Origin: Sunxiuqinia sp. | Lineage (GTDB): Bacteria > Bacteroidota > Bacteroidia > Bacteroidales > Prolixibacteraceae | DNA: 37,281 nucleotides | Assembly (NCBI GenBank): GCA_024635605.1 | Contig: JAGXIR010000080.1 | Span: 1-37,281 of the forward strand | Direction of reading: 5' to 3' | Part shown: positions 16,649 to 18,337 of the stretch, in pieces | Position numbering within the stretch: position 1 is the stretch's first letter | Layout of the letters: each line of letters opens with the position of its first letter | Notes under the pieces: generated by a model | What the model saw: the letters and a program-made list of their open reading frames with translations, nothing else | Database searches by the model: none | Told to the model about the DNA's origin: nothing | Position numbers and translations under genes: made by a program

Positions 16649-17116
16649 CTATCTGATTACCATTTGATTTTCATGCGTAATTTTCTCGCAATATCTACAT
16701 TTTAAGGTAATCGGCTCTTTTGAAATTACCGAAAATGAAGTTGTTATCGGTTCCGCGTTGGTGATGCATTTGGGGTTAAAGCATTTAACAATGCCAACCA
16801 CCCGGTCGGGAACCTCGACTACTTTTTTTTCCACCACTTCATAGTCGCGGATAATATTCAGTTTTGCATGAGGAGCAATCAGCGCGATTCGGTTGATGTC
16901 ATCATTTTCGAAAAACTGGTTTGATACTTTAATGATAGCTTTATTTGTGAGTTTCCCGCTGTCGAGGTTGGTTCCAAACGTGATCATATTGGTTGTTTTA
17001 TCCAATTCGAGGATTGAAATCACATCGAATAAACTCTCTGAAGGAATGTGGTCAATCACTGTACCTTCGCTAATGGCACTTACCTTCAGTTTTAATTTCT
17101 TTTTATGCTCTTTCAT
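16649..17116 (-). CDS. pyrI: Aspartate carbamoyltransferase regulatory subunit
   Basis: [18 protein letters not shown]...[14 protein letters not shown]...KCRYCEK: PyrI with its four-Cys zinc site. Confidence 0.96.
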
Positions 17117-17121
17117 AGCGG

Positions 17122-18033
17122 TTATTTTAAGTTTAGTGCATGAGAAATAATTGCTTCGCGCGCGAATACCCCGTTACGAGCCTGTTGGAAGTAATAGGCT
17201 TTTTCATTTTGATCTACGTCGGTGGCAATTTCATTGACCCGTGGGAGGGGGTGCAGAATGCGCATATTTGGTTTGGTATTTTTCAGCATGCTGTTTCTCA
17301 GGATGTAGACATTTTTAACTTTTTCGTATTCCATGGGATCGGAGAACCGTTCTTTTTGTACGCGGGTCATGTACACAATGTCCGCCTCGGAAATGATATT
17401 TGTAAACTCCAGGTGTTCGAAGAAGCGGATGCCTTTTTCGCGCAGGTAGATTTTGTATTCCTCAGGCATTTGCAGTTCTTCGGGTGCAATGAAGTTGAAA
17501 ATTGGGTTTTCAAATTGCGACAAGGCCATCAAAAGCGAGTGCACCGTGCGTCCATAACGGAGATCTCCGACCATGAAAATATTCAGGTTGTCGAATGTCT
17601 TCTGGGTTTTCAAAATAGAATACATGTCCAGCAAGGTTTGGGTTGGATGCTGGTTGGCTCCGTCGCCGGCATTGATAACCGGTACCGAAGAAACTTCGGC
17701 AGCATAGCGGGCACTTCCTTCCAGCGGGTGACGCATCACAATCAGATCGGCGTATTGCGACACCATTCGGATCGTATCGTGCAGTGTTTCTCCTTTTGAT
17801 ACACTGGAAGAGCCAGAGTCGGAAAAGCCAACAATACGACCGCCCATACGGTTGATAGCAGTCTCAAAGCTCAACCGGGTCCGGGTTGATGGCTCGAAAA
17901 ACAGCGAGGCTACCACTTTCCCTTCCAGTAATGTCTGATTCGGATTTTCTTCAAAATCAGCAGCCATATCCATTATTCGCAGGTAGTCTTCCTTCGAATA
18001 ATCCATGATGGAAATTAAATCTTTTTTACTCAT
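17122..18033 (-). CDS. pyrB: Aspartate carbamoyltransferase catalytic subunit
   Basis: [79 protein letters not shown]. Confidence 0.98.
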
Positions 18034-18059: not shown

Positions 18060-18099
18060 AAAAAAAAAACCAACAGGATTAAAAATCACTGTTGGTTTT
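18060..18099 (-). terminator. Intrinsic terminator (putative attenuator) in the pyrB leader
   Basis: Minus strand AAAACCAACAG-TGATTTTTAATC-CTGTTGGTTTT running into a T-tract; 11-bp perfect stem; U-tract ends 26 nt before the pyrB ATG. Confidence 0.88.
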
Positions 18100-18253
18100 C
18101 ACTATCCGGATAATATGCCGGTAATAAACTAATTTGCTGAGCTTGATAATGTCCCTTAACGTTTTTGACAGAGCGTTTAAATAAAGGGAAAAAATTTGTC
18201 GGGTGATCCTGATCACCAGTTGGGAAATTATATCGAACGTTTAAACGCCTCAT
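18086..18253 (-). CDS. Putative pyrBI leader peptide (55 aa), below the ORF-track length cutoff
   Basis: Manual minus-strand translation: MRRLNVRYNFPTGDQDHPTNFFPLFKRSVKNVKGHYQAQQISLLPAYYPDSENQQ*. The last coding triplets form the 5' arm of the terminator stem. Confidence 0.45.
   Translation of the reverse strand: MRRLNVRYNFPTGDQDHPTNFFPLFKRSVKNVKGHYQAQQISLLPAYYPDSENQQ
18202..18217 (-). other. Candidate RNAP pause hairpin preceding a U6 tract in the pyrB leader
   Basis: mRNA sense GGUGAUC-AG-GAUCACC then CGACAAAUUUUUUCCCUUU. Confidence 0.5.
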
Positions 18254-18260
18254 CAAAATT

Positions 18261-18268
18261 CAAAATTA
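18261..18268 (-). promoter_or_regulatory. Candidate -7 box TAATTTTG for pyrBI
   Basis: Exact TAnnTTTG match on the minus strand; no clear -33 TTTG at the usual spacing. Confidence 0.35.
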
Positions 18269-18337
18269 AATCATTTGTTCCTTGTTAAGTGATAATTGGC
18301 TGCAGGTTTTATTACCGATTTATTAACAAAGCAGGCA

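Follow-up and report, generated by a model that had tools for sequence, protein, structure and literature searches.

In Escherichia coli and Salmonella, the aspartate carbamoyltransferase genes pyrBI are preceded by a leader gene, pyrL, whose open reading frame (ORF) carries a hairpin and a U-rich tract coding for FFP and enters the terminator before pyrB. In E. coli the leader gene contains the terminator (PMC4824070), unlike in trp/his-type attenuators, whose terminators are located more than 20 bp downstream of the leader ORF (PMC4824070). In the textbook model of pyrBI control, low UTP slows the RNA polymerase and a coupled ribosome prevents formation of the terminator (PMC10135430). The literature that we searched, which stopped short of the main review of pyr regulation, contained no published pyrB attenuator from Bacteroidota. 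Here we describe the same genes behind a conserved leader that we regard as a real regulatory element and that most likely represents pyrBI attenuation in a form not described before.

The window, by which we mean the whole stretch of DNA analysed, comprises 37,281 nt of a Sunxiuqinia sp. (assembly GCA_024635605.1, contig JAGXIR010000080.1, positions 1-37,281, forward strand). Its nearest named genomes are those of Sunxiuqinia dokdonensis, with a PyrB that is 98% identical, and of S. indica, in the family Prolixibacteraceae. On the minus strand, yigZ (18940-18338) is followed by the leader region and then by pyrB (18033-17122), with the features collected in Table 1. A sequence-only reading of this DNA had noted a promoter box, an ORF, a hairpin (GGTGATCAGGATCACC), a pyrimidine tract (TTTTTTCCC, 18194-18186) and a terminator, all of which we recovered where it had placed them. 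Its naming of the downstream genes as pyrBI agrees with their matches to TIGR00670 and TIGR00240, respectively. The arrangement is that of a pyrBI-type attenuator: the leader stands before pyrBI with a terminator in between, its ORF runs into or next to that terminator, and within the ORF a U-rich tract precedes the terminator.

Table 1. Features of the pyrB leader and of the genes behind it in the window
Feature	Sequence	Positions	Strand	Basis
-7 box, predicted Bacteroidota sigma-ABfr-type promoter	TAATTTTG	18261-18268	(-)	match to TAnnTTTG
Leader ORF, 55 codons, ending YYPDSENQQ-stop		18086-18253	(-)	stop codon within terminator 5' arm
P1 5' arm, includes leader AUG	GAUGAGGCGUUUAAA	18240-18254	(-)	duplex and covariation tests
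P2 hairpin, possible pause hairpin	GGUGAUCAGGAUCACC	18202-18217	(-)	position kept, sequence covaries
Putative UTP-requiring pause-like tract, codes for FFP	UUUUUUCCC	18186-18194	(-)	enrichment at position
P1 3' arm, immediately 3' of the pyrimidine tract, partner of the AUG region	UUUAAACGCUCUGUC	18167-18181	(-)	duplex and covariation tests
P3 hairpin, between pause tract and terminator	ACCGG...CCGG	18106-18122	(-)	folding, Sunxiuqinia
Intrinsic terminator, 11-bp stem	AAAACCAACAG...CTGTTGGTTTT	18099-18066; T-run 18069-18060	(-)	sequence and folding
pyrB, aspartate carbamoyltransferase catalytic subunit, proposed regulated gene		17122-18033	(-)	NCBIfam TIGR00670 above cut-off
pyrI, aspartate carbamoyltransferase regulatory subunit, proposed regulated gene		16649-17116	(-)	NCBIfam TIGR00240 above cut-off

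We gathered pyrB-upstream sequences from relatives and, irrespective of ORF length, counted as leaders those with three features: an exact match to TAnnTTTG, an ATG that follows it after 4-9 nt, and a T-run ahead of pyrB. The ATG frame had no stop up to a point 40 nt short of the T-run in 87 of the 87 leaders so defined, compared to 10 and 4 for the +1 and +2 frames. This count used the first T-run, which sometimes was not the terminator, a fault mended by a second count in a non-redundant set of 54 Prolixibacteraceae leaders from which similar sequences had been removed. In all 54 the ORF came as close as 12 nt to the terminator stem or closer, and none stopped further ahead of it (0/54), whereas each of the other two frames was open that far in only three leaders. 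Conservation of the frame, which the sequence-only reading had proposed as a check, is thus found in the relatives. Apart from the FFP-like residues that the pyrimidine tract encodes, the leader peptides themselves have diverged. The pN/pS ratios of the leader ORF were 1.30, 0.80 and 0.42 in three groups, no in-frame stop was present and all of the alignment gaps were multiples of three, so that translation of the leader, rather than the sequence of its peptide, seems to be under conservation.

The position of the ORF end varies. It falls in or adjoining the stem in 11 of the 54 leaders, including the window, where the stop codon lies inside the terminator 5' arm, as had been claimed from the sequence. 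In 18 leaders it falls between the stem and pyrB, and in 25 the ORF overlaps or enters pyrB. The leader stop and the pyrB start overlap as ATGA in 15 of the 54, and in 3 others the leader ORF ends one base inside pyrB, an overlap that many relatives have and E. coli pyrL lacks. Since the ORF reaches the pyrB start in many relatives, the same ribosome could hand translation over from one to the other. Hand-over is also supported by three Prolixibacteraceae leaders (L169, L211 and L173) with ~70-90 extra nt between terminator and pyrB, in which the ORF nonetheless continues in frame to the ATGA overlap. Such overlaps would suit a leader that works mainly by translational coupling, its ORF serving to bring ribosomes to pyrB and regulated termination playing little part. 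We consider this improbable, because all 54 leaders retain a strong intrinsic terminator (-7 kcal/mol or lower, within 90 nt of pyrB) and because in the window and in several other Sunxiuqinia the ORF ends within or right at the terminator and falls well short of pyrB.

Promoters in Bacteroidota follow the consensus TAnnTTTG, centred at -7 (PMC7366714), and TAATTTTG is the sole exact match near the leader in the window. The ATG follows the box after 7 nt in 36 of the 54 leaders and after 4-8 nt in every one. Transcription is predicted to start ~3 nt ahead of the leader AUG, the predicted length of the 5' UTR in the window. A conserved start so near the promoter box is unusual, because only ~3.7% of the 5' UTRs of B. 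thetaiotaomicron are shorter than 10 nt (PMC7366714). The ATG does lie next to the predicted start site, which the sequence-only reading had offered as a caveat to its model, but the kept spacing marks it as a conserved feature instead.

The terminator could also be read as the end of the yigZ transcript, with pyrB transcribed from its own promoter further downstream. yigZ is indeed located upstream on the same strand in most of the family, and in the window a weak box with one mismatch (TTTTTTTG) overlaps the T-run, which ends 26 nt before the pyrB ATG (18033). Yet the last 45 nt before pyrB hold no exact TAnnTTTG in any of the 54 leaders, consistent with the earlier claim that there is no further promoter between terminator and pyrB. 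Furthermore, leader and terminator are also present in three loci with the upstream gene on the opposite strand (L078, L098 and L099), which argues that the terminator is not merely the end of an upstream transcript. The distance from yigZ to pyrB is 54-250 nt without the leader versus ~300 nt with it, and a conserved 47-codon ORF would be left unexplained. We therefore regard this reading as very improbable. Four loci from other Prolixibacteraceae genera (L012, L024, L029 and L030) have no leader and only 54-171 nt between yigZ and pyrB, suggesting loss or gain of the leader in one piece of ~200 nt.

Within the leader of the window, hairpin P2 spans +36 to +51 and the pyrimidine tract +59 to +67. 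A T/C pause-like tract was found at +55 to +79 in 69% of the leaders, compared to a mean of 17% and a maximum of 31% after codon shuffling. About a third of the leaders lack such a tract; conservation of the U-tract was another of the checks that had been proposed. The folding signal of P2 at +24 to +60 had a mean z of -1.6 (standard error 0.16) and was ~0 in the folding windows missing P2. Its role as a pause hairpin is offered as a suggestion only, because the dependence of the E. coli pause on a hairpin has recently been disputed (PMC9291695). Folding of the whole leader alone was unremarkable (z -1.46). P3 is retained in several Sunxiuqinia and does not overlap the terminator.

The hairpin and the terminator named in the sequence-only reading are present, but it overlooked a long-range helix, P1 (18254-18240 with 18181-18167). 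In this helix the stretch that begins at the AUG (GAUGAAACG in most leaders) pairs with CGUUUCAUC just 3' of the pyrimidine tract. The 3' arm usually lies 85 nt from the AUG and at a nearly constant distance behind the tract. Across 66 leaders that were not selected for structure, the arms of the same leader paired at -12.2 kcal/mol versus -9.6 kcal/mol when swapped between species (0/20000 permutations). RNAalifold recovered P1 unprompted from an alignment of 19 leaders, and two-sided changes occurred at 12 pairs of P1 and P2 (shuffled mean 6.2; 0/500 shuffles), providing the covarying stems that had been proposed as a further check. Paired cells in P1 and P2 amounted to 81%, versus 28-48% with the partner slid. 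These pair counts come from an alignment of leaders that had been selected because they show P1, and the arm-swap test in the 66 unselected leaders is for this reason the stronger evidence. A gapless scorer over 17 pairs accepted 20 of the 66 leaders versus 7.5 expected by chance; we judged it too strict and used the duplex arm-swap test instead. P1 is weak or absent in L016, L042, L043, L174, L204 and L209. In the window the AUG is held in P1 by A-U, U-G and G-U pairs only (CUGUC, where relatives have CAUC), a poorer pairing than theirs, although its predicted unpaired probability still falls to 0.12 once the polymerase is beyond +105. Averaged over the 54 leaders, predicted AUG accessibility drops from 0.49 with the polymerase at +70 to 0.19 at +120, compared to 0.42 and 0.35, respectively, in codon-shuffled controls.

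The order and geometry of these elements suggest a pyrBI-type, UTP-responsive attenuator in which polymerase pausing times the start codon of a near-leaderless leader ORF, a reading to which we give a probability of about 0.72. P1 probably supplies the switch by sequestering the start codon. Soon after initiation ~3 nt ahead of the leader AUG, low UTP would hold the polymerase in the pyrimidine tract, and during this pause the AUG would be free because the 3' arm of P1 is not yet transcribed. With that arm located just 3' of the tract, P1 could form only after the polymerase has left it. A ribosome could then load at the free AUG near the RNA 5' end, trail the polymerase and cover the 5' arm of the terminator, permitting read-through into pyrBI. 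The conserved open frame lends indirect support to a dependence of read-through on leader translation. Plentiful UTP, on the other hand, would allow fast passage through the tract, so that the P1 3' arm emerges, the AUG is trapped and no ribosome loads; the terminator would then form and transcription would end 26 nt before pyrB. Attenuation of the E. coli type could also proceed without such a switch, from a free start and with the distance between ribosome and polymerase as the deciding factor, P1 being incidental or serving to protect the 5' end. P2, the tract, the ORF and the terminator would suffice for that layout, and P1 is weak in several leaders. We nevertheless think it unlikely, because P1 covaries, includes the AUG wherever it is present, and has its 3' arm directly behind the tract at a near-constant distance.

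Other known classes of attenuator resemble these leaders less. A structured leader that also codes for a peptide could be an attenuator that senses an amino acid, or could bind a ligand or protein, as a riboswitch or a PyrR target does. The trp/his-type attenuators share the leader peptide and the terminator, whereas here the terminator is inside or adjoining the leader ORF and no regulatory codon run is present; among the peptides of the relatives we found neither a shared run of codons for one amino acid nor a conserved sequence. The PyrR-binding attenuators of Bacillus likewise control pyr genes by termination. By contrast, the leader described here would be translated, PyrR did not score above its family cut-off in any of 31 genomes, and Rfam searches at gathering and relaxed thresholds returned nothing above the curated cut-offs for the leader. 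In addition, the conserved unpaired positions are limited to the pyrimidine tract, and the remaining conserved positions lie in P1. On the absence of a codon run, of PyrR above cut-off in the 31 genomes and of an Rfam match, we rejected the amino-acid, PyrR and riboswitch readings, which we hold to be the least credible of those considered.

The comparison with E. coli pyrL is closest at the pause. Both the hairpin and the tract of pyrL stand at nearly the distance from the leader AUG seen here, with the tract starting at +60 in pyrL and at +59 in the window; the pyrL ORF has 44 codons rather than 55. Initiation differs, as pyrL has a Shine-Dalgarno sequence and a longer 5' UTR whereas the AUG here would lie only ~3 nt behind the predicted 5' end of the transcript. 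The conserved helix that pairs with the AUG and would form after the pause tract is likewise a feature of these leaders and not of pyrL. Moreover, ~85 nt separate the tract from the terminator, versus ~26 nt in E. coli, and the ribosome would thus have to stay near the polymerase for longer. In E. coli K-12 pyrL (L235, 2900-3094) the Shine-Dalgarno sequence GGGAGGA is predicted to pair with the pause tract UCUUCCCG, with predicted accessibilities of 0.00 for the Shine-Dalgarno sequence and 0.01 for the AUG once the polymerase is beyond +85. Convergent sequestration of the start site in pyrL is possible on this modelling. We tentatively propose, at somewhat less than even odds, that pausing controls the exposure of the start codon and not just the distance between ribosome and polymerase. 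This may apply to E. coli as well, in which case the textbook model of pyrBI would be missing a step and could be refined so that pausing decides whether the start codon is usable at all. If the attenuator reading is true, UTP-sensing leader-peptide attenuation would extend from gammaproteobacteria to Bacteroidota, a phylum with different promoters and in which Shine-Dalgarno starts are rare. It would also provide evolutionary evidence for ribosomes closely trailing the RNA polymerase in Bacteroidota, and an unusual example of a conserved near-leaderless gene.

By our count, the exact-box leader is present in 16 of the 23 sampled genera, and it is missing from most of the other Bacteroidales sampled. 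A search with a model of the leader RNA returned the pyrB leader only, plus one weak second match (genome G034), which we rejected as a chance hit because it lies antisense inside a peptidyl-prolyl-isomerase-like coding region. Similar ORFs ending at or near a terminator were seen in a dozen leaders from other groups, including Labilibaculum, Barnesiella, Coprobacter and Butyricimonas. The pyrB leader of Barnesiella is related but built differently. Four Barnesiella loci (L091, L093, L101 and L110) carry TATCTTTG-N9-ATG upstream of pyrB, which in L091 and L110 is followed by an ORF of 30-34 codons that reaches a terminator. The segments ATATAATCC and GGATTATAT of L110 could enclose a U tract. 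Upstream of pyrB in Dysgonomonas (L109), the complementary segments AATAGATTG and CAATCTATT lie on either side of the point where a short leader ORF starts, with a terminator adjoining this ORF.
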